Shown here one piece after another: positions 2,924-38,588 of a stretch of DNA of 64,000 bases. The DNA is taken from assembly GCA_022652545.1 (NCBI GenBank), contig JALCRM010000001.1, forward strand, positions 186,001 through 250,000, read 5' to 3'. The position numbers and the translations under genes were made by a program. Numbering within the stretch: the stretch's first letter is position 1; every line of letters begins with the position of its first letter. Below the pieces are notes generated by a model. The model was given only the letters and a program-made list of their open reading frames with translations, did no database searches and was not told the origin of the DNA. The DNA is from Lachnospiraceae bacterium (GTDB lineage: Bacteria; Bacillota; Clostridia; Lachnospirales; Lachnospiraceae).

Positions 2924-2932
2924 TGCTATAAT
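2924..2932 (+). promoter_or_regulatory. extended -10 promoter for the rhomboid-like gene
   Basis: TGCTATAAT is a perfect extended -10 element, with no convincing -35 box. The predicted start is near 2939, about 25 bases before the ATG at 2964. This argues against the longer ORF start at 2931, which lies inside the -10 box. Confidence 0.6.
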
Positions 2933-2963
2933 GCACGTAAACCGAAGAAAGGCAGCAGCTCTG

Positions 2964-3989
2964 ATGGATAAATTCGAACGCAAATATGGAAAGTATGCTA
3001 TAAAAAACCTTTCGCTGGCCCTGATCCTGTGCTACGGGTTCGGCTACCTCATCCAGATCGTCAACAGCGGCTTTCTCAACTGGCTGTCGCTGAATCCGTA
3101 CGCCATTCTGCACGGGCAGATCTGGCGCCTCTTTACGTGGATCATCGTCCCGCCGGACACGTCCAATCTGTTCTTTGTGGCGATCATGCTGTTCTTTTAC
3201 TACAGCATCGGCACCGCGCTGGAAAGGACCTGGGGCACCTGGCAGTACAATGTCTATATTTTTTCGGGCATGTTTTTTACGGTGATCGGCGCTTTCGTGT
3301 TTATGGCGCTGGCCTACCTGTTCCAGGGCAGCATTATCGGCGCCCTCGGCCCCTCCGTCTATTTTCCCGCCATGGCGAAGTACTTCAGCACCTACTATGT
3401 GAACATGTCCATTTTCCTGGCTTATGCCGTGACATACCCTGACATGCAGGTGCTTTTTATGTTCATTATCCCCCTCAAAGTCAAGTATCTCGGCATTCTG
3501 TATGCCGTTTTCATGGTGGTCGAGGTGGTACAGGCGGGGTCCGTCCTGCGCCTGCCGATCGCGATCGCGATCCTGGCTTCCCTCTTCAACTTCTTCCTGC
3601 TCTGGCTGCGGCTGCACCGCAGCAGCCTGGATCCCCAGCAGAGGCGCAGACGGGCGCAGTTCCGGAAGGCGGTACAGAACAGGTCTGCCGGAAATACTGC
3701 CGGCAGCGGCAGACAGGGCGGAGAGCAGACAAAACAGCAGACAGACCGGAGCACAGGGCATTATCACTATCCCGGCGGCGCACTGCACCGCTGCGCCGTG
3801 TGCGGAAGAACGGACATCACAAACCCGGAGCTGGACTTCCGCTACTGCACCAAATGCGAAGGTGACTACGAATACTGCAGCGACCATCTGTTTACGCACA
3901 TTCATGTAAAAAAGGGCGACCGCAGCAGTTTCGATGCACAGGGGCATGTGAAGAACGGCGCGGGAGTCGCAGATGAACAGAATTCCTGA
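2964..3989 (+). CDS. rhomboid-like polytopic membrane protein, probably inactive, with C-terminal zinc-binding region
   Basis: The protein has 341 residues from ATG 2964. GAAAGG lies just upstream, and the alternative start 2931 falls in the promoter. Residues ~15-215 form several hydrophobic segments in a rhomboid-like layout: WRLFTWIIVPP, then ALERTWGTWQYN, then GALGPSVYFP. The expected GxSG serine motif is replaced by GPSV, and I find no catalytic histidine in the last segment, so proteolysis is unlikely. The tail is basic (QRRRRAQFRK), then Q/T-rich. It ends in a cysteine/histidine set, CAVCG ... YCTKC ... YCSDHLFTHIH, resembling a B-box or zinc ribbon. The function is unknown. The gene overlaps the next one by 17 bases, so translation is probably coupled. 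Confidence 0.75.
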   Translation: MDKFERKYGKYAIKNLSLALILCYGFGYLIQIVNSGFLNWLSLNPYAILHGQIWRLFTWIIVPPDTSNLFFVAIMLFFYYSIGTALERTWGTWQYNVYIFSGMFFTVIGAFVFMALAYLFQGSIIGALGPSVYFPAMAKYFSTYYVNMSIFLAYAVTYPDMQVLFMFIIPLKVKYLGILYAVFMVVEVVQAGSVLRLPIAIAILASLFNFFLLWLRLHRSSLDPQQRRRRAQFRKAVQNRSAGNTAGSGRQGGEQTKQQTDRSTGHYHYPGGALHRCAVCGRTDITNPELDFRYCTKCEGDYEYCSDHLFTHIHVKKGDRSSFDAQGHVKNGAGVADEQNS

Positions 3990-5787
3990 GATCATCCACT
4001 ATTTCTGGATCGGCGGCGCCAAAAAGCCGGATCCGGTGCTGCGCTGCATCGCATCCTGGAAAAAATTCTGCCCGGACTGCCGCATTATGGAGTGGAACGA
4101 GCACAATTTTGACTTTACCCGCAATGCATATATGCGGCAGGCCTACGAGGCAAAGCGGTGGGGATTTGCCACCGACTGCGCGCGTCTCGATGTCGTCTAT
4201 GAATACGGCGGGATCTATTTTGACACGGATGTGGAGCTGATCGCCGATCCGTCCCGGCTGTTCGGGGAAGAGGCCTTCATCGGCTTCGAGGACGCCGGAA
4301 ACGGAGAGCTGTACGTCAACACAGGGCAGGGGTTCGGCGCGGCGCCCGGCAATGCCCTGATCGGCAGGGCCAGGGACCTTTACGACAGGCTTTCCTTCGT
4401 GCGGGAAGACGGATCGCTGAATCTGCTCACAACGCCGTATTACACGACCATGACGCTGCGGCAGTACGGACTGGTACAGGAAAACAGGGACCAGGAGCTG
4501 CCCGGCATGAAGGTCTTCGCGACGGATGTGTTTTGTCCGAAGAGCTACGTCACCGGGGAAGTGCACTGCACCGGACGCACGGTATCGATCCACCATTTTG
4601 ACGCTTCCTGGCAGGACAGTTCTGTACGCAGCGCCGCCCTGCACAGACAGAAAGTGCTGACAAAATACGGCCGGAAACTGGGACAGGGCATTCTCGTGGC
4701 GGAAAGCGCGCGAAAGAACTACACGCCTGCGCAGCTTCTGAAGGCAGTGCCGGCTGCCGCGGGCAGGGCAGCAGGGCGGAAGCTCCGGAGCCTTGCGGTG
4801 ACGGTGCCGTTCTACGGCCGTCTGCTGTCGGGAAAAGGAAACGCAGCCGCAGGTCCGGCGCCCGGCTCTTTACCTGCGGAGGAAAACCCGGATGCGGGCT
4901 GCGAAATGTTTTCCCTGGCCTGCCGCAGGCAGCTTGCGCCCCTGCATACCGGTTTTTACATTCCCTGCACCGGAGAAATACAGGAAGCGCAGGGAGACAG
5001 GAAACAGAAGGAAAGCAGGGTCGTCTGCGGAAACGCCTGCTCCGGGGAAGGCCGTCTGTTCGGGATCTGGGCACCCGGGACGGACCTCGCCGCCTGGAAG
5101 GGGTCGGTGCTGATGGGCGCCGGACTGACGGCGGAAGACCTTTATCCCGATGCGGCCCGCAACCGTATGCTGCGCGCCGTGCTTTCAAAGAGCGGGATCC
5201 ATTCGGTGCGCGACCGCGCTGCGGAAAAGATGCTCCGGAGACTGGGCATCCCCAATGTACTGTATACCGGGGACCCGACGCTGTGGGATCTTACGCAGGA
5301 GCAGCTGCAGGCCATTCCCCGGGGGAAAAGCGATACAGCGGTATGTACGCTGTCCGCCGCCTGCCGGGACGTCGAAAAAGACAGGGACATACTGCGGACT
5401 TTGCGGGAAATCTATGCGAAGGTATTTTTCGTACCGCTGTCTTCCGGAGATGAGAAATATTTTGAGACCCTGGGGCAGGAAGGCATTGAGTGTGTGCCGG
5501 CCGGCAGCCCGGAAAGCTCCATCCTTCCGCAGAATGGCAGCTTCGACTGTATCAGCACTTCGTTTTATGCGGCTGTGAGTGCGCTTCGCGGCGGACACCG
5601 CACGCTGTTTATACAGACCGGGAAGAGCTTCGGCCCCGCGGCGGCGGATGCCGGCATGGCGCTCATACGCAGGGAGGATGCACAGTATTACCTTGCGGAC
5701 AGGCTGCGTACGCAGTTTGAAACGAAGATCACGATACCATGGGAAAACATCGGGAAATGGAAGAATCAATTCGGGGGAAAGCCTTGA
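3973..5787 (+). CDS. GT32 glycosyltransferase fused to a pyruvyltransferase-like domain
   Basis: The protein has 604 residues. The N-terminal ~235 residues are a family 32 sugar transferase: IPEIIHYFWIGG at the start, then RLDVVYEYGGIYFDTDVEL with the DxD metal and nucleotide-sugar motif. After a basic A/G/P-rich linker, residues ~310-604 resemble polysaccharide pyruvyl transferases (SVRDRAAEKMLRRLGI followed by YTGDPTLWDL). That half is shorter than a full PPT domain and seems to lack its first sub-domain, so it may be regulatory or an enzyme remnant. A frame-shifted pair is not needed to explain it, since the frame is continuous. GGGAG precedes the ATG. The true pyruvyl transferase follows directly, so the product probably works in the same glycan pathway. 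Confidence 0.8.
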   Translation: MNRIPEIIHYFWIGGAKKPDPVLRCIASWKKFCPDCRIMEWNEHNFDFTRNAYMRQAYEAKRWGFATDCARLDVVYEYGGIYFDTDVELIADPSRLFGEEAFIGFEDAGNGELYVNTGQGFGAAPGNALIGRARDLYDRLSFVREDGSLNLLTTPYYTTMTLRQYGLVQENRDQELPGMKVFATDVFCPKSYVTGEVHCTGRTVSIHHFDASWQDSSVRSAALHRQKVLTKYGRKLGQGILVAESARKNYTPAQLLKAVPAAAGRAAGRKLRSLAVTVPFYGRLLSGKGNAAAGPAPGSLPAEENPDAGCEMFSLACRRQLAPLHTGFYIPCTGEIQEAQGDRKQKESRVVCGNACSGEGRLFGIWAPGTDLAAWKGSVLMGAGLTAEDLYPDAARNRMLRAVLSKSGIHSVRDRAAEKMLRRLGIPNVLYTGDPTLWDLTQEQLQAIPRGKSDTAVCTLSAACRDVEKDRDILRTLREIYAKVFFVPLSSGDEKYFETLGQEGIECVPAGSPESSILPQNGSFDCISTSFYAAVSALRGGHRTLFIQTGKSFGPAAADAGMALIRREDAQYYLADRLRTQFETKITIPWENIGKWKNQFGGKP

Positions 5788-6908
5788 GGATCGGCATTAT
5801 CACCTGGTTTTACTATGAAAACTACGGGACCAGGCTGCAGGCCCTGGCGCTGCAGCACTATCTGCGGGATCTCGGGCATACGGCTGAGCTCATCAACTTT
5901 GTGCCGCCGGAATCCAGGGTGAAGGGATACAGACCCAGGCAGAAACTGTCCGAGAAGATAGACAGCCGCATTCTGCGGAGGTACAGGCAGAAGGCAGCCA
6001 GGGATTTTACGGCACAGATCCGGGAGAAAAGCGAAAAACTGGACGCCTCACTCCGGAGACTGTGCCTGCTTTCCGAGCCGGCAGAGGACGATGAGAGTTT
6101 TATCCGTATCTGCAATTCCTACGATCTGCTCATCTGCGGCAGCGACCAGATCTGGAATCCATACTGGTTCCACCGGTACTATTATGCGGACTTTCCGGAG
6201 ATCCTGACGCCGAAGATCTCGTATTCGCCGAGCATCGGGATAGATGTGACCGATGCGGCACAGGCAGACCGGATCAGGGAGGCAGTCGGAAAATTCGCAG
6301 CGCTTTCGGTGAGGGAAAAAGGCTCGGCTGACTGGCTTTCCTCGCTTACGGGAAGGCCGGTCGCCTGTACGGCAGACCCGGTACTGCTGCTGCGGGCATC
6401 CGAGTGGGATGCCCTCCTGAAACTGGAGGACACGGCGGAAGAACCGTATGCAGCCGTCTATTTCCTGAGTGACAGCAGAAGACACTGGAGGGCGGCGGAG
6501 AAATTCTGCACCGGCAAGGGCCTGAAGGCGGTCGTCATTCCGGCGCAGGGGCGTTCCTATTACGAACGGGGAACGATCGCGGCGGATGCCGGCGTCGAGG
6601 ACTTTGTGAGGATCCTGAGGAACGCGGAATACGTCATCACGGATTCCTATCACGCGTCTCTTTTTTCCGTCATTTATGAAAAACAATTCCGGGTCTTCGA
6701 GCGCTTCCGGCCGGACAGTGAGTCCTCGCAGAACCGGCGCATAGATGATTTTGCGGAAATGTTGGGACTGCAGTCCTGTCTGCTGCGGTACGGGACAGAC
6801 AGTCTTGATTTTGCGGAGCCGATCCCCTACGGGAAGGTCCGCGCGCTGAAGCGGGCCGGGATAGAAGAATCCGTACAGTATCTTCAGAAGGCGGTGCAAT
6901 GCAGATAA
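5784..6908 (+). CDS. polysaccharide pyruvyl transferase family protein
   Basis: The domain begins at RIGIITWFYYENYGTRLQALAL, a typical PPT start. It continues with ICGSDQIWNP, SVREKGSADWLSSLTGRPVACTADPVLLL and ITDSYHASLFSVIY. Family members transfer a pyruvyl ketal from phosphoenolpyruvate to a sugar, usually in cell-wall or capsule glycans. The track starts at 5739, deep inside the previous gene. I prefer TTG at 5784 because GGGGGAAA lies at the right distance and TTGA overlaps the upstream stop, giving 374 residues. The stop overlaps the next gene by ten bases. Confidence 0.87.
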   Translation: MRIGIITWFYYENYGTRLQALALQHYLRDLGHTAELINFVPPESRVKGYRPRQKLSEKIDSRILRRYRQKAARDFTAQIREKSEKLDASLRRLCLLSEPAEDDESFIRICNSYDLLICGSDQIWNPYWFHRYYYADFPEILTPKISYSPSIGIDVTDAAQADRIREAVGKFAALSVREKGSADWLSSLTGRPVACTADPVLLLRASEWDALLKLEDTAEEPYAAVYFLSDSRRHWRAAEKFCTGKGLKAVVIPAQGRSYYERGTIAADAGVEDFVRILRNAEYVITDSYHASLFSVIYEKQFRVFERFRPDSESSQNRRIDDFAEMLGLQSCLLRYGTDSLDFAEPIPYGKVRALKRAGIEESVQYLQKAVQCR

Positions 6909-8065
6909 ATGATGAAAACAGATGCTCAGGCTGCTCAGCCTGCGCGCTTGCCTGTCCTGCCGGATGCATAGAGATGAAACTATCGGAAGAAGGCTTCCTC
7001 AGGCCCTGTATCGACGCCTCAAAGTGCCTGAACTGCGGCCTGTGCCGACGGATCTGCATTTATGGCGGAAACCGGGCAAAGCCGCTCGACAGCGGCACGC
7101 TGTACTCTGCGTATGCGGCAGACAGCGGGCTGCGCGGGAGTTCCTCCTCCGGCGGCGTGGCTGCCGTCATGGCCCGCCAGGCGATCGGAGAAGGAAGCTT
7201 TGTCTGCGGGGCAGTCTACGATCTTGCAGGGCAGTGTCCCAGGCACACGGTCTGTTCGTCCCTGCAGCAGGCCGAGGCACTGCAGGGCTCCAAATATCTT
7301 CAGAGCCGCTGCAGGGAAGGCTTTGCGGAACTGATTGCAAAACTGCGGCAAAACAGCGCGGCAGAGGCCGTTGTGTTCGCGACGCCGTGCCAGGTCGCCG
7401 GCCTGGATGCCGTACTGACGCAGTTCGGACTGCGGCAGCGGGTGATCCTGATCGACAACTTCTGCCACGGGGTCCCCACTTACCTGCTCTGGCAGAGATA
7501 TCTGGAAGAGCTGGAAAGGAACCGGCACATCCCCGCAGAAAGCATTGAAAAGGTCACCTTCCGGGACAAGCGCATTTCCTGGCACCGGTATTACATGCAC
7601 ATATCGGGCGGCGGCAGGAACTACTGCGAACCTACGGCACGGGACAGTTTTCTGTCTGTTTTTACCGGCTATATGGTAAACCAGAGGGAATGCCTGGACT
7701 GCCGCTTCCGCAATGCGTCCGCAGCGGATGTGAGGCTCGGTGATTTCTGGGGCAGGCGATACCGCGGCACCGAAAAAGGATATTCCATGATGCTTGTTTT
7801 GACAGAAGCAGGAAAGAAATTCTGCGACCGGCTGGACGGCATAGAGCGTATGGAAGTGCCTGTGGAGGAGCGGAAGGGACAGCAGCACGAGGACTATCCG
7901 TTCCCGCGTTTTTACGACAGGACGATCGCCATGCTGAAGGCCGGCGAGATGCCGGAACGCATTCTGGAGCTGTATGTGCCGGAACGCAGGCGGAAGCAGA
8001 AACGGCTGCGCTCCTGGTTCAGCACGGATCTTCTGAAATACCTGAAATACAGGAATAAACAATGA
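6899..8065 (+). CDS. FrhB-like iron-sulfur/flavin oxidoreductase (coenzyme F420 hydrogenase beta-subunit family)
   Basis: The protein has 388 residues. Two 4Fe-4S motifs sit at the N-terminus (CSGCSACALACPAGC and CLNCGLCRRIC). Then come SSSGGVAAVMARQAI, FATPCQVAGLDAVL and VRLGDFWG, the usual landmarks of the FrhB N- and C-terminal domains. The F420 name is inherited: no F420 gene is seen and F420 is not expected in this lineage, so a flavin-dependent reduction using ferredoxin is more plausible. The family is repeatedly found next to pyruvyl transferases in polysaccharide loci, as here. Its substrate in that context is unsettled. Confidence 0.85.
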   Translation: MQINDENRCSGCSACALACPAGCIEMKLSEEGFLRPCIDASKCLNCGLCRRICIYGGNRAKPLDSGTLYSAYAADSGLRGSSSSGGVAAVMARQAIGEGSFVCGAVYDLAGQCPRHTVCSSLQQAEALQGSKYLQSRCREGFAELIAKLRQNSAAEAVVFATPCQVAGLDAVLTQFGLRQRVILIDNFCHGVPTYLLWQRYLEELERNRHIPAESIEKVTFRDKRISWHRYYMHISGGGRNYCEPTARDSFLSVFTGYMVNQRECLDCRFRNASAADVRLGDFWGRRYRGTEKGYSMMLVLTEAGKKFCDRLDGIERMEVPVEERKGQQHEDYPFPRFYDRTIAMLKAGEMPERILELYVPERRRKQKRLRSWFSTDLLKYLKYRNKQ

Positions 8066-8120: not shown

Positions 8121-8864
8121 ATGGACGAAACGAAGAAGGAACAGCTTTTTCTGCAGAAACTCACGGAGGTCATCCGGGAGGCCAAACAGCAGGGCAATAT
8201 GGTGACCCGTGAGGAACTCGATGAGGCCTTTTCCGGACTCAGTCTGGAGGAGGGGCAGATGCAGCAGGTGCGGGACTACCTGCAGGCGGAGAAGATCGGC
8301 ATCGGGCAGCCGGTTCCTGCGGAGGAACTGCTGACGCAGGAAGAGCACGACTACCTCGCTGAATATACCGAAACGGTGAATGCGATCGGACAGCCGGATC
8401 CGTCGGAACTCGAAGCGCTGGAGCTGTCAGCCATGGCCGGGGAGAAAGACGCCCAGGACAGGCTGGCGGAGGTCATGCTGCCGAAGGTCGTGGATATTGC
8501 GAAGCTGTATGCAGGGCAGGGCGTGTTTGTGGAAGACCTGATCGGCACGGGCAACGAGGCGCTGGTGCGCGGCGTAAAAATGCTTGCTCCGCTTGAAAAC
8601 GCCGGGGAAGCCGAGGGCATGCTGGCAAAAATGATCATGAATGCCATGGAGGATCTGGTCGCCGGCAACCTGGATGAGAGCGCAAAGGGTGAGGAAGCGG
8701 TCCGGAAGGTGGAGCGCGTTGCTCAGAAGGCGCATGAACTGGCTGAAACACTGGGCCGGAAGGTGACCGTTGACGAGCTTGCCCGCGAAGGAGAAGTGAC
8801 AAAGGACGAGATCCTGGATGCTGTCCGTTTTTCCGGCACGGCGATCGAAGATCTCGAAAAATAG
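8121..8864 (+). CDS. sigma-70-like protein with regions 1.1, 2 and 3 but no region 4
   Basis: The protein has 247 residues. Residues ~8-65 resemble sigma region 1.1 (GNMVTREELDEAFSGLSLEEGQMQQVRDYL). Residues ~75-180 follow region 2: LTQEEHDYLAEY, AQDRLAEVMLPKVVDIAKLYAGQGVFVEDLIGTGNEAL. The aromatic and basic residues of regions 2.3-2.4 that melt and read the -10 box are not recognisable. Residues ~200-245 match region 3 (AHELAETLGRKVTVDELAREGEVTKDEI). The protein stops there, without region 4. It may bind RNA polymerase without normal promoter recognition, but this is inference. The annotation could equally be a degenerate sigma factor. It has its own SD (GGAGG, 8112-8116) behind a hairpin leader. 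Confidence 0.7.
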   Translation: MDETKKEQLFLQKLTEVIREAKQQGNMVTREELDEAFSGLSLEEGQMQQVRDYLQAEKIGIGQPVPAEELLTQEEHDYLAEYTETVNAIGQPDPSELEALELSAMAGEKDAQDRLAEVMLPKVVDIAKLYAGQGVFVEDLIGTGNEALVRGVKMLAPLENAGEAEGMLAKMIMNAMEDLVAGNLDESAKGEEAVRKVERVAQKAHELAETLGRKVTVDELAREGEVTKDEILDAVRFSGTAIEDLEK

Positions 8865-8865
8865 C

Positions 8866-8961
8866 GCAGCAGCGGTGCCAAAAAGCGGCACCGGCTGCAA
8901 CAGCGGCACGAAGTGTTGCCGATGTTCATTTCGGAGAACCGTTGGTTCTCCTCATGGAGGG
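8866..8961 (+). repeat. leader repeat copy 2: long hairpin, then SD hairpin
   Basis: GCAGCGGTGCC (8869-8879) pairs with GGCACCGGCTGC (8887-8898) around AAAAAGC, with one bulged base. After GATGTTCATTTC a second perfect hairpin GGAGAACC-GTT-GGTTCTCC (8933-8951) and TCATGGAGG follow. The small hairpin differs from copy 1 by a T-A to C-G pair exchange, which keeps the stem. Confidence 0.6.
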
Positions 8962-8965
8962 ATAT

Positions 8966-9403
8966 ATGGAGATCGGTGCAGGGTCGCCTGACAATTCGGA
9001 TTTTAAATATGAGATGAACGATCTTACTGTGTTGTATTACGGTGCCCGTTTTACCTACGGTGAGATCCTGGAAGACAAGGCCACGAACTTTAAGCTCAAA
9101 CATATTCTTTCCGACTATGTCCTGAAGGAAGTGACACCGGACACCACGCTGGAAAGCCATTTTTACTACATGCAGAAAGGATCGGCTTCCTTTCAGCTCT
9201 ATGAGCAGCTGAAGACGAAAGTGCGCATCAGCGAGCCCTGCGAGAGAAAGAAACTGTTCGGCGGGACCGAACAGGTATTCCGGGAACGCATCTGTACGCT
9301 GGAGGAACTGACGTCTGTGCCGCCGGAGGAAAAAGAGCGCAGGGGCATACTGGTCCGGGAGATACAGATCAGCAAACTGGCACTGATGGCCTTCACGCTC
9401 TGA
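8966..9403 (+). CDS. conserved-looking protein of unknown function
   Basis: The protein has 145 residues from ATG 8966. GGAGG lies five bases upstream; the longer track start is a TTG inside the hairpin and is rejected. The sequence is soluble and mixed (ILEDKATNFKLKHILSDYVLKEVTP, FYYMQKGSASFQLYEQLKTKVRI), with no membrane segment, metal motif or repeat that I recognise. It follows the sigma-like gene and shares the same leader element, so the two may be co-regulated. I assign no function. Confidence 0.6.
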   Translation: MEIGAGSPDNSDFKYEMNDLTVLYYGARFTYGEILEDKATNFKLKHILSDYVLKEVTPDTTLESHFYYMQKGSASFQLYEQLKTKVRISEPCERKKLFGGTEQVFRERICTLEELTSVPPEEKERRGILVREIQISKLALMAFTL

Positions 9404-9414
9404 GAAATTCTCAG
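9400..9414 (+). other. short inverted repeat over the stop codon of the unknown gene
   Basis: CTGAGAAATTCTCAG overlaps the stop codon. There is no proper T-tract after it (GGGCATTTT), so it is at best a weak terminator. Confidence 0.25.
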
Positions 9415-9591
9415 GGCATTTTCTGTATGCTGCCGCGGATCGCTGCGGCTTTCGGCTGCACAGGTTGTTTTTACGGCAGGCTCATATTATACTGAAATCC
9501 GGTTCGGAAAATCTTTCCGCTCCCGCGCTTCTGCGGTCCTTCCGCAGCGCGGGCACGGCCTTTGTTCTGATCTGCGGCACATCTTATTTTG

Positions 9592-9620
9592 TTGACAAAG
9601 AGCAGCGTTTGTTCTATGAT
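9592..9620 (+). promoter_or_regulatory. recA promoter
   Basis: TTGACA (9592-9597) and TATGAT (9615-9620) have an exact 17-base spacer. This is close to the consensus for the housekeeping sigma factor. Confidence 0.8.
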
Positions 9621-9633
9621 TTCACTCAGGAAT

Positions 9634-9647
9634 CGAACAAATGTTCT
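9634..9647 (+). promoter_or_regulatory. LexA operator (Gram-positive SOS box)
   Basis: CGAACAAATGTTCT matches the Gram-positive LexA consensus CGAAC-N4-GTTC. It lies just downstream of the expected transcription start, a position where a bound repressor would block recA transcription. This predicts SOS induction. Confidence 0.85.
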
Positions 9648-9684
9648 GCATCGACACGGTCATTCCCACAAGGAGAAAAACAAT

Positions 9685-10773
9685 ATGAGCAATCTGGACC
9701 ATGATGAAAAACTCAAAGCACTTGACGCTGCAGTCATGCAGATCGAAAAGCAGTACGGCAAAGGTTCCATAATGAAACTCGGCGATCCTTCCACGCAGAT
9801 GAACGTCGAAACGATCCCTACCGGTTCCCTGAGCCTGGATATTGCACTGGGGCTCGGCGGCATACCGAAGGGCCGTGTTGTGGAGATCTACGGACCCGAG
9901 TCTTCGGGCAAAACGACACTGTCGCTGCATATGATCGCCGAAGTGCAGAAGAGAGGCGGCATTGCGGGCTTTATAGATGCGGAACACGCACTGGATCCCG
10001 TATATGCCAAAAACATCGGCGTGGATATAGACAATCTGTACATTTCCCAGCCGGACAGCGGCGAGCAGGCACTTGAGATCACGGAGACCATGGTACGCTC
10101 CGGTGCCATCGACATCGTCGTCATCGACTCGGTCGCGGCACTTGTGCCAAAGGCGGAGATCGACGGGGAGATGGGCGATTCCCACGTCGGCTTGCAGGCC
10201 AGGCTGATGTCGCAGGCCCTTCGGAAACTCACCGCCGTCATCAGCAAATCGAACTGTACGGTGATCTTTATCAACCAGCTTCGTGAAAAAGTCGGCATTC
10301 TGTTCGGAAACCCCGAGACAACGACCGGCGGACGTGCACTGAAATTCTATTCTTCCGTAAGGCTGGATGTGCGCAGGATCGAGTCCATCAAACAGAGCGG
10401 AGAAGTCATCGGAAACCGCACGCGTGTAAAGGTCGTGAAGAACAAGATCGCGCCGCCCTTCAAAGAGGCGGAATTTGACATCATGTTCGGCAAGGGCATT
10501 TCCTACACCGGGGATGTACTGGATCTTGCAGCTAATCTTGACATCATCAATAAGAGCGGTGCGTGGTACACCTGCGGCGGGGAGAAGATCGGGCAGGGCC
10601 GTGAGAACGCCAGGCAGTATATGGAAGAGCACCCGGAATTTACTGCAGAGATCGATGCAAAGGTGCGGGAGCACTATGGCCTTGCACCGGCAGCAGAGCC
10701 GGTACAGCCGGCAGCTGCAGCGGATGCTTCCGCAGCGAAGCCAGACAAAAAGGCAGACAAAGCCAAAAACTGA
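9685..10773 (+). CDS. recA: recombinase RecA
   Basis: The protein has 362 residues from ATG 9685, with AAGGAGA upstream; the track start at 9589 overlaps the promoter. It shows the full RecA core: [15 protein letters not shown] near the start, Walker A GPESSGKT at ~70, [30 protein letters not shown], and [10 protein letters not shown] with the L2 region [14 protein letters not shown]. The C-terminus is an A/K/D-rich tail, as in other RecA proteins. RecA forms filaments on single-stranded DNA for recombination and stimulates LexA self-cleavage. recX follows about 100 bases downstream. Confidence 0.98.
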
Positions 10774-10875
10774 TCCATGCCGGGAAAAGACATAGTCGTG
10801 AATGCAGGCACCAGACTCCGTTTGAGGGGGCCTGGCGCCTGTATTACTGTCTGTCGGGGGAAGGAAAAGGGGAAA

Positions 10876-11409
10876 ATGAATCTGAAGGAAAGGATAGACT
10901 CCGCTGCAGATCCGGGAGAACTCAGGAAACTTGCCCTGTACAAATGCGGGGAACTGCTCAAGGGACAGGACTATACGGAACAGAGGTTGCTGCGGAAGCT
11001 GACGGAGAGCGGTTTTCCCGAAGATACGGCCAGAGAGGCAGTCAGTGCCATGGCCGAGGCACACTATATAGACGACCGCAGGTACAGTGAAAACTACGTA
11101 GCCCTGCATCTTCGGGACCGCAGCAGAAAGCGCATCGAACAGGAACTGTATGAAAGGGGCATAGCGGAGGACCTGATCGAAGCAGCGTTCCGGCATGCGG
11201 AATGCGGGGATACCGGAAAAGAAGGAGAAAGCGGAGAAGAGAGCGGCAGTATCGCCGGTATGGAATACCGGCAGATCAGGCGTCTTCTGGATAAGCGGGG
11301 GTTCGATCCCCGTACGGCAACGTGGGAGGAAAGGCAGAAGATCATGGCCTCCCTGTACAGGAAGGGATACCCGCAGGACCTCATCCGCAGGGCGATGGAA
11401 CCGCAGTAA
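10876..11409 (+). CDS. recX: regulatory protein RecX
   Basis: The protein has 177 residues from ATG 10876, preceded by an AAAAGGGG ribosome site; the longer start at 10777 adds a non-conserved extension. RecX hallmarks are helical three-helix repeats: ALYKCGELLKGQDYTEQRLLRKLTESGF, AVSAMAEAHYIDDRRYSENYV and RIEQELYERGIAEDLIEAAF. The last repeat is IMASLYRKGYPQDLIRRAM. An acidic, glycine-rich insertion separates the second and third repeats. RecX binds the RecA filament and modulates it. No promoter is seen between recA and recX, so they are probably co-transcribed under SOS control. Confidence 0.92.
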   Translation: MNLKERIDSAADPGELRKLALYKCGELLKGQDYTEQRLLRKLTESGFPEDTAREAVSAMAEAHYIDDRRYSENYVALHLRDRSRKRIEQELYERGIAEDLIEAAFRHAECGDTGKEGESGEESGSIAGMEYRQIRRLLDKRGFDPRTATWEERQKIMASLYRKGYPQDLIRRAMEPQ

Positions 11410-20666: not shown

Positions 20667-21521
20667 ATGCAGCAGAGTCAGGCACACAAGACGAAATATG
20701 CGGCGGCAGATCTGACCTTTGCGATCTGCGCCTACAAAGAGAGTCCCTGGCTGGAGGACTGCATCCTGTCCGTCAGAAAAAACGACCCGTCCGTCCATGT
20801 CCTGATCGCAACGTCCACGCCCAACGACTTGATCCGCGGGCTCGCGGAGAAATACCGGATCCCGCTGCATGTTAATGTGGCTTCCGGAGAGGGCGGCATA
20901 GCCGCGGACTGGAATTACTGCTACAGCTGCGCGGAAACGCGCCTCGTGACCATCACGCACCAGGACGATGTGTATGCACCGGCCTATGCGGAACGCGTCA
21001 CGGCCTATCTTGACAGGGCGGCGGCGCCGCTGATCGCCTTCACAGATTATTCGGAGATCCGGGAAAGCGGAACGGTCACGGACAGCCGGATGCTGCGCGT
21101 CAAACGCAGGATGCTGAGACCGCTGACACGGCCGGAAGCCTGGTCTGCAGTCAAAACAAGGCGCCGCATTCTTTCCTTCGGGAACCCCGTCTGCTGTCCT
21201 TCTGTCACCTATGTAAAGGAAGCTCTTCCGGAGATGCCGTTTGCCCCGGGATACCGCAGCAATATCGACTGGCAGGCCTGGGAAAAATTTTCGCGCATGG
21301 AGGGAGATTTTGTCTACTGCCCGGAGATCCTGATGTCTCACAGGATCCATGAGGGGTCGGCAACTTCCGAGATCATTGCGGACCACGACAGGACGAAGGA
21401 AGACCTGGATATGCTGCGCCGCTTCTGGCCGGAGCCGGCAGCGCGGTTCCTGGAACTGTTTTATCGTGCCGGGGAGAGGCAGAATGCCGCCGGACCGCAC
21501 ACGAAGGGCGGCGGACAATGA
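20667..21521 (+). CDS. glycosyltransferase family 2
   Basis: The protein has 284 residues from ATG 20667. TFAICAYKESPWLEDCILSVRKNDPSVHVLIATSTPN is a GT-A opening. ITHQDDVYAPAYAERV has the acidic donor/metal site in a less common form (HQDD). The middle contains GNPVCCPSVTYVK, typical of inner-core type GT2 proteins. The stop overlaps the fucosyltransferase start (ATGA), so the two are translated together. Confidence 0.8.
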   Translation: MQQSQAHKTKYAAADLTFAICAYKESPWLEDCILSVRKNDPSVHVLIATSTPNDLIRGLAEKYRIPLHVNVASGEGGIAADWNYCYSCAETRLVTITHQDDVYAPAYAERVTAYLDRAAAPLIAFTDYSEIRESGTVTDSRMLRVKRRMLRPLTRPEAWSAVKTRRRILSFGNPVCCPSVTYVKEALPEMPFAPGYRSNIDWQAWEKFSRMEGDFVYCPEILMSHRIHEGSATSEIIADHDRTKEDLDMLRRFWPEPAARFLELFYRAGERQNAAGPHTKGGGQ

Positions 21522-22396
21522 TCAGGGTGAACGTCACGGGAGGACTGGGCAATCAGATCTTCTGCTACTGCTGTGCGCGGGCCCTGCAGGAGGAGACCGG
21601 GCAGGAGATCGAGCTGAACACCTGGGAACTGAACAGATACGAATCCTTCCGGGAGTTCAGCCTTTCGGATTTCCGGCTGAAGGAGCCGGTCCGCATCTCG
21701 GACAGCGAACTGCCTTGGTATGCCCATCGGCGCAGCCTGCGCGGGGCACTGCTCCGCAGGATCTCGCCCGAACTCATGAAGAGCAGCGGGATACGGCACA
21801 ATTCCCACATCTGGTATCAGCTTTCCTATACGGAATTTCCCGCTCCCGACCCGGAAAAGGACATCTGTCTCGGCGGCTACTGGCAGTCTGAAAAATATTT
21901 TTCCGGATGTCTTCCGGCGCTGCGCAGCGAACTGCAGCTCACCGATGCCGCGAGGGACGCGTTCCCGAAGGATGCCGCAGCCCTGGAGAGACAGATCCTG
22001 GACAGCAGGTCCGTCTGTATTCATGTGCGGCGCGGCGATTATATGAAACTGGGGTACGGCGTCTGCGGAACGGCCTATTACCGGGAAGCAATGCGCCGGA
22101 TGGAAGAGAATGCGGAAGACATCACGTATTTTGTCTTTTCGGACGACCCGGCCTGGGCAAGGGAAAACATCGTACCCGGCCGTACGACGGTTTATGCCGC
22201 GGTACACCGCCCGTCCTGCGACCTGTATCTGATGAGCCGCTGCCACGATTTCATTCTGGCCAACAGCTCCTTCAGCTGGTGGGCGCAGGAACTGAACCCC
22301 TGCAGCGGCAGGCGCGTGATCGCGCCGGCAAAATGGCATACGAAGCTGGCTGTCAGGGACATCTGGAAGGAAGACTGGGAGAAGATCGACGTATGA
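21518..22396 (+). CDS. alpha-1,2-fucosyltransferase-like protein (GT11)
   Basis: The protein has 292 residues. The GT11 hallmarks are the start IRVNVTGGLGNQIFCYCCARAL, then SVCIHVRRGDYMKLG at ~165-179 (the HxRRGDY motif that binds GDP-fucose), and DFILANSSFSWWAQELN near the C-terminus. These enzymes add fucose in alpha-1,2 linkage, often to galactose. No gene for GDP-fucose synthesis is in the window, apart from the mannose-1-phosphate guanylyltransferase that could feed such a route. ATGA overlaps link it to the genes on both sides. Confidence 0.9.
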   Translation: MIRVNVTGGLGNQIFCYCCARALQEETGQEIELNTWELNRYESFREFSLSDFRLKEPVRISDSELPWYAHRRSLRGALLRRISPELMKSSGIRHNSHIWYQLSYTEFPAPDPEKDICLGGYWQSEKYFSGCLPALRSELQLTDAARDAFPKDAAALERQILDSRSVCIHVRRGDYMKLGYGVCGTAYYREAMRRMEENAEDITYFVFSDDPAWARENIVPGRTTVYAAVHRPSCDLYLMSRCHDFILANSSFSWWAQELNPCSGRRVIAPAKWHTKLAVRDIWKEDWEKIDV

Positions 22397-36376: not shown

Positions 36377-37591
36377 ATGGTGAACGCGATCTATCTGACA
36401 TCCAGGATCTATCCGATGAACAACGGAGGCACTCTGCACGACTACGGAAACTGCACCTTTCTTTCCGGTCTGCTGCGCCTGACCGTTTTTTCCTGTCTCG
36501 ATCCGTCCGCCGACCGGGCCGCGGCGCAGGCACGCTTCAGGGACGAACCGTTTGCCTCGGAGTTCTGCACCCGTCCGGACCGCGCGCATTCCATGGAGTA
36601 TGTCCGTGCGAGGCTCCGTCTCATCGAGCCGGTCGACACCGACCTGTACCGGAGGATCGAACAGCTTGCGGAGAGGGAACGCACGGGGATCGTCTTTTTT
36701 ACGCTGAAGATGAGCCTGTATGCGGAAAAACTGAAGGCGGCGCACCCGGCCCTGCACCTGATCTGCATCTCACACAACAGCGAGTACGTCAACATACGGG
36801 ACGATCTGAAAAAATACGATACATCGCGCGGAACGGGGCGCCTCAGGCACTTCTCCAAAATGCTGCGGGCACGGTTCTTCGAAGCGCAGGAGAAAAAGGC
36901 ACTTTCGGAATCCGATTTCGTGTTCAGCATATCGGAGAACGACAGCAGGCGCCTTTCCTCCCACTACGGGATCCCCGCCGCCCGCTTTGTCACCTGCAAG
37001 CCGATGATCCGCTTCCACAGCCCGAGGGGAGACGCCGATTCAAGGACATACCGCCACAGCCTGCTCATCGTCGGCAACATGAACTGGTATCCTACAGCTG
37101 CCGGTGCCGTGCGCTTTGCAAAGGAGATCTTCCCTGCACTGCTTGCGGAGGATCCGCAGCTGCGCCTGTACATCGTGGGCGCAAACCCGGCGCCGGAAGT
37201 GCAGGCGCTTGCGGGCGGCGGGGCAGACAGCCCGGTCATCGTCACGGGCTTCGTGCAGGACGTCGACGAATATTATGAGAAATGCGATATTGCCGTGGTG
37301 CCTGTCCTTACCGGGACCGGTGCCAAGATCAAGGTGCTGGAAGCGCTGGGAAAACATATCCCGGCGGTGCTTACCGCTTATGCGGCGGAGGACTATCCCG
37401 GGTCGGAGACCTGCGCGCACGTCGCCCCGGCCTTTGCGGATCTGCTCCCGCAGACCCTTTCCCTGATGCGGGAGGAAGCGGAGCGCATACGCACGGAAAG
37501 AGCGGAAGAGCAGTACTACAGGGAGTATATGTCTGACAGCGCGTCGGTGCGCGCCTGTATCAGGCGGATCACAGAGGCGGCCGATGAGTGA
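36377..37591 (+). CDS. glycosyltransferase family 4-like
   Basis: The protein has 404 residues, preceded by AGGAG. N-terminal AIYLTSRIYPMNNGGTLHDYG resembles the acceptor domain of GT4 enzymes. The donor domain has LLIVGNMNWYPTAAGAVRFAKEI, LRLYIVGANPAPEVQALA, VTGFVQDVDEYYEKCDIAVVPVLTGTGAKIKVLEALGKHIPAVLT, in which KVLEALG is the EX7E-type donor loop. It overlaps the GT10 gene by eight bases. The donor is unknown. Confidence 0.86.
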   Translation: MVNAIYLTSRIYPMNNGGTLHDYGNCTFLSGLLRLTVFSCLDPSADRAAAQARFRDEPFASEFCTRPDRAHSMEYVRARLRLIEPVDTDLYRRIEQLAERERTGIVFFTLKMSLYAEKLKAAHPALHLICISHNSEYVNIRDDLKKYDTSRGTGRLRHFSKMLRARFFEAQEKKALSESDFVFSISENDSRRLSSHYGIPAARFVTCKPMIRFHSPRGDADSRTYRHSLLIVGNMNWYPTAAGAVRFAKEIFPALLAEDPQLRLYIVGANPAPEVQALAGGGADSPVIVTGFVQDVDEYYEKCDIAVVPVLTGTGAKIKVLEALGKHIPAVLTAYAAEDYPGSETCAHVAPAFADLLPQTLSLMREEAERIRTERAEEQYYREYMSDSASVRACIRRITEAADE

Positions 37592-38588
37592 ACTGACCGA
37601 ATACATGAAGGCCTGCAAGAGGATCCTGCAGCAGGACAGGCCGAAACAGCCTGCGGAGTGGGACGGCATCTCCTATGTCAACTGGTGGGACGGGGCAGCG
37701 GAGGAAATGTGGTTCTCGCGCTTCCTTTCGCACCGGCTGCCGGACCGCACGAAAAATGTGCGCTTTTACAGTGTATTCGGCCCGAGAAGGCGCCTGCACG
37801 ACGGCTTCCGCGGGGCCAGGATCTTTTATTCCGGAGAGAATGTGGAGCCGGGGCGCCTCTGCAAGAATGTGCGCATGAACAGAAGGAGCGCGCTGTATTT
37901 TTACGGCCACAGGGTCAGGACCTACGGCGACTATGCGCTGCCGCTCATGGATCTCTCCCTTGGATTCGGACACCGGACGGAGGACAATTACCTTCGCTTT
38001 CCGGAGTGGATCCCTTTCACGTTTGAACCGGAAAGCGGTCCCCGGGAGGTCAGGGAGCGCGTGGCGCAGATCAACGCTGCCATGCCCCGCAGCGACGCCG
38101 CGGGGGCCCTGCTCCTTGCAAGCCACGACGATTTCGGGACCCGGACCAGCATCGCCGACGGCCTGACCGGCATCCTCGACATTACCTACGGCGGGAAATT
38201 CCGCAACAATTCGAATGCCCTGAAAACGCGGTTTGAAGACGACAAGCTGCGCTATCTCCGCACGTTCCGCTTCAATATCTGCCCGGAGAACACCGACACG
38301 GAGGGATACTGCACGGAAAAACTGTTCGATTCCTTCCGCACCGGCACGATACCTGTCTACAACGGTTCGCACAACGATCCGGAGCCGGGACTCGTCAACA
38401 GGGATGCGGTGGTCTTCTGGGATTTTGACGGAGACAATGCGGAAAGCATCCGCCTCATCAGGGAACTGGATGCTGACGACAGGAAAAGAGAGCGGTTTCT
38501 GAAACAAACGCGCCTTACGGACGCGGCAGCCGACTATGTCTGTGAGGAACTGGAACAGCTGAAGGAAAGGATAAGGGCGCTCACATGA
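37584..38588 (+). CDS. GT10 family alpha-1,3-fucosyltransferase-like protein
   Basis: The protein has 334 residues. The signature block FRFNICPENTDTEGYCTEKLFDSFRTGTIPVYNGSHNDPE (~229-268) is the conserved alpha-1,3/4-fucosyltransferase motif that binds GDP-fucose. Upstream are FYSGENVEPG and KNNSNALKTRF-like FRNNSNALKTRFEDDKLRYL, also family features. There is no membrane anchor. With the GT11 gene at 21518, this suggests a fucosylated glycan with both alpha-1,2 and alpha-1,3 branches. ATGA overlaps the next gene. Confidence 0.88.
   Translation: MSELTEYMKACKRILQQDRPKQPAEWDGISYVNWWDGAAEEMWFSRFLSHRLPDRTKNVRFYSVFGPRRRLHDGFRGARIFYSGENVEPGRLCKNVRMNRRSALYFYGHRVRTYGDYALPLMDLSLGFGHRTEDNYLRFPEWIPFTFEPESGPREVRERVAQINAAMPRSDAAGALLLASHDDFGTRTSIADGLTGILDITYGGKFRNNSNALKTRFEDDKLRYLRTFRFNICPENTDTEGYCTEKLFDSFRTGTIPVYNGSHNDPEPGLVNRDAVVFWDFDGDNAESIRLIRELDADDRKRERFLKQTRLTDAAADYVCEELEQLKERIRALT

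Follow-up and report, generated by a model that had tools for sequence, protein, structure and literature searches.

The window (the whole 64,000-nucleotide stretch of DNA analyzed here) contains three consecutive genes encoding a GT32 glycosyltransferase fused to a degenerate pyruvyl transferase tail, a complete pyruvyl transferase and an FrhB-type iron-sulfur protein. The best explanation as a whole, which we put forward tentatively and as something just short of probable, is that of a coupled unit with a dead tail, an active transferase and the FrhB-type protein as a redox partner. The three open reading frames (ORFs) lie on the plus strand at positions 3973 to 8065 and overlap at their ends, and the ORFs together with their Pfam matches confirmed the composition that a first-pass annotation had proposed for this segment (Table 1). 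The fusion (ORF 3973 to 5787, 604 amino acids) starts 17 nt inside the gene of a membrane protein, which matched no Pfam family above the cut-off and whose gene is likely to open the coupled set, and the FrhB gene starts ten bases ahead of the end of the pyruvyl transferase gene. Given these overlaps (17 nt, a TTGA stop/start overlap and ten bases), the gene set reads as one translationally coupled surface-polysaccharide unit.

Table 1. Features of the unit and of the gene preceding it (window coordinates).
Feature	Coordinates	Strand	Evidence
Multi-pass membrane protein, zinc-ribbon-like CxxC region at the C terminus	2931..3989	+	ORF, overlap with the fusion
GT32 glycosyltransferase half, fusion residues 1-290	3973..4842	+	PF04488, E 4e-12; 52% identity to the G030 fusion in this part
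Degenerate PF04230 (polysaccharide pyruvyl transferase) tail, fusion residues 301-604	4873..5787	+	PF04230, 35.6 bits
Complete PF04230 pyruvyl transferase, 374 aa	5784..6908	+	PF04230, 119 bits, profile 1-277/280
FrhB-type Fe-S oxidoreductase, 388 aa	6899..8065	+	PF04432, E 6e-16; Fer4_7, E 1e-7

The source genome (2.67 Mb in 27 contigs, 81% complete) probably belongs to the Lachnospiraceae (hereafter, the family), judging from its nearest named relatives, which are Clostridia and include Butyrivibrio fibrisolvens. It has four PF04230 matches, two being the genes of the unit, and one match to PF04432. The genes recA and recX (window 8121-11409) separate the three genes from the main polysaccharide cluster, which encodes glycosyltransferases, a UDP-glucose-type dehydrogenase, an NAD-dependent epimerase and ABC transporters. 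A member of the GT11 fucosyltransferase family (window 21518-22393; E 9e-35) and a GT10 protein with FucT_N (window 37584-38585; E 1e-9) are also found in this cluster, and from these two families its surface glycan is likely fucosylated.

An inherited glycosyltransferase fusion with a changed tail

The first half of the fusion matched Gly_transf_sug (PF04488, GT32) at residues 20 to 100 with 47.2 bits (cut-off, 23) and contains a DXD-type motif, GGIYFDTD, with the DTD at residues 84 to 86; it would add a sugar to the glycan. Across 299 genomes of the family, we found one full-length counterpart, a 608-amino-acid protein from another genus (genome G030) with 43% identity over fusion residues 1 to 600. 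No further full fusions appeared among 62 genomes of the genus. This full-length ortholog rules out an assembly join, and the protein is almost certainly an inherited GT32/pyruvyl transferase fusion common to another genus. A frameshift masking an intact tail was also discarded, as tblastn of the G030 protein over positions 3901 to 6000 gave one continuous match in frame +1 (residues 1 to 607), the strongest out-of-frame match (E 0.004) falling within the GT32 half.

Members of the tail family were detected in 13 genomes out of the 397 examined from the bacterial family, and most of them were whole proteins of ca. 325 to 430 amino acids. In G144, a GT32 gene is followed directly by a standalone gene of the tail family, that is, the split form, and in G005 and G383 tail family members are fused to GT4 glycosyltransferases. 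Other PF04230 proteins are located behind GT2 domains (G170, G053 and G087), so that the fusion of a glycosyltransferase and a pyruvyl transferase domain is a recurrent design involving GT32, GT4 and GT2. These GT2 and GT4 fusions resemble the window protein in having a glycosyltransferase in front of a PF04230 domain; in the GT2 group, however, the PF04230 domains are complete, whereas the window fusion combines a GT32 partner with a degenerate tail. The GT4 fusion of G383 (L071:1498-3948:-; G383:C1 near 3537116-3538063) is a second, separate changed tail behind a glycosyltransferase, with the motifs HSVCD and GARFH, 12 conserved positions lost and an open frame. One genome (G181) has a standalone intact tail family gene and a relative of the downstream enzyme in one cluster (L186:1314-2300:- and 3700-4872:-), with no FrhB gene within the 14 kb read. 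Viral contigs contained one relative of the tail and none of the other two proteins of the unit.

The first-pass annotation had described the second half of the fusion as incomplete. The domain does lack its first strand and has lost motifs, although residues ca. 305 to 604 align with whole standalone proteins. PF04230 was matched at residues 379 to 490 (E 1e-8; cut-off, 25.3 bits; profile positions 98 to 210 of 280), the tail scored 360.8 bits against a subfamily profile built with the tail sequence included, and the G030 tail covered the full PF04230 profile (1 to 280 of 280). In an alignment with 14 relatives, 47 positions were conserved in 90% or more of these proteins, and the window tail departed from 17 of the 47. 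A single difference was counted in the G030 tail and 1 to 12 in the other relatives, the maximum corresponding to the GT4 fusion of G383. The losses cluster in the N-terminal GDEII region, in GTRLHAG (replaced by STSFYAA) and in DNR (replaced by GKS), while the 30 positions retained lie outside the active site and include HSVRD, TGxPTxW and the C-terminal W-K-QF.

In CsaB, R148, H308 and K328 bind phosphoenolpyruvate (PEP) and R306 is predicted to do so; the H308A, R148K and R148Q mutations abolished activity, and H308S left some (PMC10435577). By our reading of the alignments, the tail retains the equivalent of the PEP-binding R148 (HSVRD, residues 410 to 414) and lacks the Arg-x-His of the PEP site (R306 and H308 equivalents), with RLH changed to SFY. 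The histidine lost in the tail is retained by all of the other 81 PF04230 proteins in a sample from the family. With both equivalents lost and the histidine universal in this sample, the tail is very probably a pseudoenzyme, predicted to be catalytically dead and to have lost PEP binding, although the partial activity of H308S CsaB means that the loss of the histidine alone is no absolute proof. The idea that the second half is a PF04230 domain behaving as a fused, noncatalytic accessory domain thus agrees with both the Pfam match and the lost catalytic motifs, and would add a case of a pyruvyl transferase domain made noncatalytic after its fusion to a glycosyltransferase.

Structure prediction of the tail, suggested beforehand as a check, was of limited help. 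The AlphaFold models obtained from two-row alignments were of low confidence (pLDDT of 49.7 and 41.3), that of the tail averaging 49.7 and reaching 60 to 82 over much of the C-terminal half. Using this low-pLDDT tail model, the best Foldseek matches in the PDB were UDP-GlcNAc 2-epimerases (E of ca. 7e-5, TM of ca. 0.4), with a GT-B-like two-domain fold, and the PF04230 protein Pvg1p has been described as GT-B-like (PMC4872226). The model is consistent with the PF04230 assignment and with a pyruvyl transferase fold, the GT-B-like matches not being independent proof of it. Sequence searches of the PDB with the tail or with the profile of its subfamily found no relatives.

Phylogenetically, the window tail was sister to the G030 tail (support of 0.995) on a branch six times longer (1.57 versus 0.25). 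Its frame is open, with a coding-like GC content by codon position. When neutral drift of the G030 tail was simulated to 60 to 37% identity, a mean of five to seven stop codons appeared and almost no stop-free runs were obtained. Drift to the observed divergence would thus have left five to seven stops, and the frame is held by selection, which may act on the protein tail itself or on translational coupling with the following gene. The tail might simply be decaying, with its frame kept only so that ribosomes reach the stop codon and start the next gene at TTGA. This stop/start overlap, the further overlaps with neighboring genes, the long branch and the 17 lost positions all fit such a process. 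Yet keeping a frame for coupling needs merely the absence of stops, and here 30 of the 47 conserved positions persist outside the active site; the strongly changed tail of the G383 fusion, of the GT4 type, also has an open frame. We therefore regard simple decay as unlikely. In our preferred reading, the tail of this lineage would no longer transfer pyruvate and would be kept as a folded, noncatalytic tail, perhaps because it binds the acceptor, docks a partner or couples translation to that of the next gene.

The downstream pyruvyl transferase and the origin of the tail

The gene located downstream from the fusion matched nearly the complete PF04230 profile (E 4e-34). An alternative start at ATG 5739 would give 389 amino acids, but TTG 5784 is likely the better one, judging from its context: it forms the TTGA overlap with the stop codon (TGA) of the fusion and is preceded by GGGGGA. 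From this TTG the enzyme begins RIGIITWFYYENYG, and its relative L058 starts MKIATVTWITYNNYG. The catalytic residues are retained (the Arg of SVRE, the His of TDSYH and the Lys of YEK), which makes it very likely an active, PEP-dependent pyruvyl transferase. It would act on the same glycan that the GT32 half serves.

The first-pass annotation had favored a duplication of this gene, one copy having become the fused accessory domain. The two are both PF04230 proteins and adjoin each other, but a tree built from 95 PF04230 domains placed them in separate, well-supported clades, which argues against a local duplication. The tail subfamily (TGCPTMW ... GTRLH) was monophyletic with a support of 0.997, and the downstream enzyme belonged to another clade (support of 0.999). 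Direct similarity is near zero (BLASTP E of 0.07; hhalign probability of 0.7% between the downstream enzyme and the tail subfamily built without the window tail), and the closest relative of the tail is that of the G030 fusion, so we consider this origin extremely improbable.

The nearest neighbor of the downstream enzyme in the tree is from G050, where PF04230 and PF04432 matched frames of equal length (772 amino acids). In the 14-leaf clade around the enzyme, 11 of the 13 other members are FrhB paired, within a sample of paired and unpaired PF04230 genes chosen in about equal numbers. A motif signature of the paired enzymes (S/T-x-H versus R-x-H) was discarded, as S/T occupied the R306 position in 28 of 40 paired and 22 of 41 unpaired enzymes, and no single residue distinguished these two sets of 40 and 41. 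Nitroreductase was also discarded as a partner of the unpaired PF04230 genes, since it did not rank within the 25 most frequent families of 68 of their neighbors. Five of these 68 neighbors matched PF02776 (thiamine-pyrophosphate enzyme N-terminal domain), which was unexpected there.

Pairing of PF04230 and FrhB-type genes

PF04432 was present in 65 of 200 family genomes, with 85 matches listed above the cut-off used. At least 61 of these 85 had a PF04230 gene on the same strand within 5 kb, so that those without one were at most ca. 28% among the matches listed. At least 38 had it within 1 kb, with PF04230 on the 5' side in at least 34 of them. In several genomes, the matches to both families fell in ORFs of the same length, and a single protein bearing both domains was confirmed (L090). 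Adjacent genes in reversed order were found in a Bacteroides finegoldii plasmid and a pair with a split transferase in a Pseudobutyrivibrio plasmid, and in Butyrivibrio fibrisolvens 16/4 the FrhB gene adjoins a PF04230 transferase; the latter is split over two frames (L190:6281-7386:- and L190:5201-6202:-). In G030, a PF04230 gene is located downstream from the fusion, followed further on by an FrhB-type fragment. This fragment (L036:2703-3167:-) comprises the C-terminal 155 amino acids, is apparently a remnant and lies next to a hexapeptide transferase. The pair is thus widespread, also in Bacteroides, and common in the family. Full-text literature searches for both families together retrieved no paper describing it. 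The control genomes of Escherichia coli and Bacillus subtilis contain PF04230 without PF04432, which indicates that ordinary ketals need no FrhB.

The third gene of the unit matched PF04432 (FrhB_FdhB_C) with 59 bits, Fer4 domains and, more weakly, PF04422. Its product has two N-terminal CxxCxxCxxxC [4Fe-4S] motifs, with their eight cysteines all retained, FrhB_N and FrhB_C domains and four more invariant cysteines. Among 42 relatives, 24 positions show at least 90% conservation; the window protein has retained every one of them, including 12 cysteines, and is thus probably functional. Why it should accompany pyruvylation in an organism without evident F420 had been raised as a puzzle. CofD (PF01933), required for F420 synthesis, had no match in the 81%-complete genome and adjacency to PF04230 is the rule in the family, so F420 need not be involved. 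The domain name and family membership would fit a true F420-dependent enzyme, with the cofactor synthesized by the cell or imported, but the lack of a CofD match and a score of 20 bits against the model of the F420 dehydrogenase FpoF (cut-off, 475) make this highly improbable.

A possible lactyl ether and comparison with known systems

PF04230 enzymes use PEP. In the MurA/MurB pair, enolpyruvyl is transferred by the first enzyme and then reduced to a lactyl ether by the second, a flavoenzyme. By analogy, the FrhB-type protein could be the redox partner of the pyruvyl transferase, carrying electrons, probably from ferredoxin, via its Fe-S clusters and a flavin. These electrons would reduce an enolpyruvyl or oxocarbenium intermediate, and the pair would give a 1-carboxyethyl (lactyl) ether rather than a pyruvyl ketal, a proposal that we consider possible but doubtful. 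The two products would differ in the mass added to the acceptor (+72.02 Da for a lactyl ether, +70.01 Da for a ketal), and an ether-linked lactyl group has NMR signals near 1.4 ppm (CH3), 4.4 ppm (CH) and 78 ppm (C2) (PMC9912281). A serious contender, itself somewhat less than probable, is that the 374-amino-acid enzyme makes an ordinary pyruvate ketal and FrhB performs an unrelated step of the glycan pathway, e.g., the reduction of a sugar intermediate. The PF04230 enzymes of known product, CsaB and Pvg1p, do make ketals (PMC10435577, PMC4872226), and some FrhB genes had no listed PF04230 nearby. Against it, the adjacency, the usual 5' position of PF04230 and the one-chain fusions in several genera argue for a common reaction.

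In its widest form, which we regard as unlikely, the lactyl ether proposal would make PF04230 plus an FrhB-type or nitroreductase carrier a second, MurA/MurB-independent route to lactyl ethers, which would yield the 1-carboxyethyl sugars of capsules and exopolysaccharides in gut and rumen anaerobes, with the fused tail as a pseudoenzyme that helps to recruit the pair. If true, the pair would be a genetic basis for a set of acidic sugars that chemists have described for decades, and capsule chemistry could be predicted from genomes. The logic proposed to be common to MurA/MurB is the transfer of a PEP-derived enolpyruvyl onto a sugar followed by flavin-dependent reduction to a lactyl ether; the protein families, however, are unrelated to PF04230 and FrhB, and the lactyl product here is hypothetical.

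The 374-amino-acid enzyme and the tail share PF04230 membership with CsaB and Pvg1p. The PEP-binding Arg and His (and a Lys) of CsaB are kept in the enzyme, whereas the tail has lost the Arg-x-His, and both fall far below the cut-off of the CsaB equivalog TIGR03609 (28 and 27 bits, respectively, versus 213). CsaB and Pvg1p act without a redox partner, while the window enzyme adjoins an FrhB gene. The FrhB-type protein shares two [4Fe-4S] motifs, FrhB_N and FrhB_C with the FrhB/FpoF/FdhB family (PF04432, PF04422), but it is not an FpoF or Frh ortholog; its gene adjoins that of a pyruvyl transferase close to a polysaccharide locus, and no CofD was found in the genome.

Among Klebsiella capsules, type K66 has a lactyl ether. 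Type K22 contains 4-O-[(S)-1-carboxyethyl]-GlcA (glucuronic acid), acetylation being the sole difference between K37 and K22 (PMC3857182). Of 46 nonpyruvylated capsule types, only four (K8, K22, K37 and K66) have pyruvyltransferase genes, and few cps loci of any type contain a gene for a nitroreductase (n = 2) or a coenzyme F420 hydrogenase (n = 1) (PMC4616057). The match in number between three rare redox genes and three lactyl types (K22, K37 and K66) is suggestive only; two other papers on Klebsiella loci make no mention of the nitroreductase or F420 hydrogenase genes. Within the same bacterial family as the window, the EPS of Butyrivibrio fibrisolvens 49 contains 4-O-(1-carboxyethyl)-galactose, according to the title of a reference cited in PMC6723465. 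The K22, K37 and K66 loci thus have pyruvyltransferase genes despite capsules reported without pyruvylation, and K22 and K37 at least have 4-O-(1-carboxyethyl)-GlcA in the capsule, a situation comparable to that of the window, with its PF04230 gene beside FrhB, although in Klebsiella a nitroreductase gene may take the place of the FrhB-type gene seen here.
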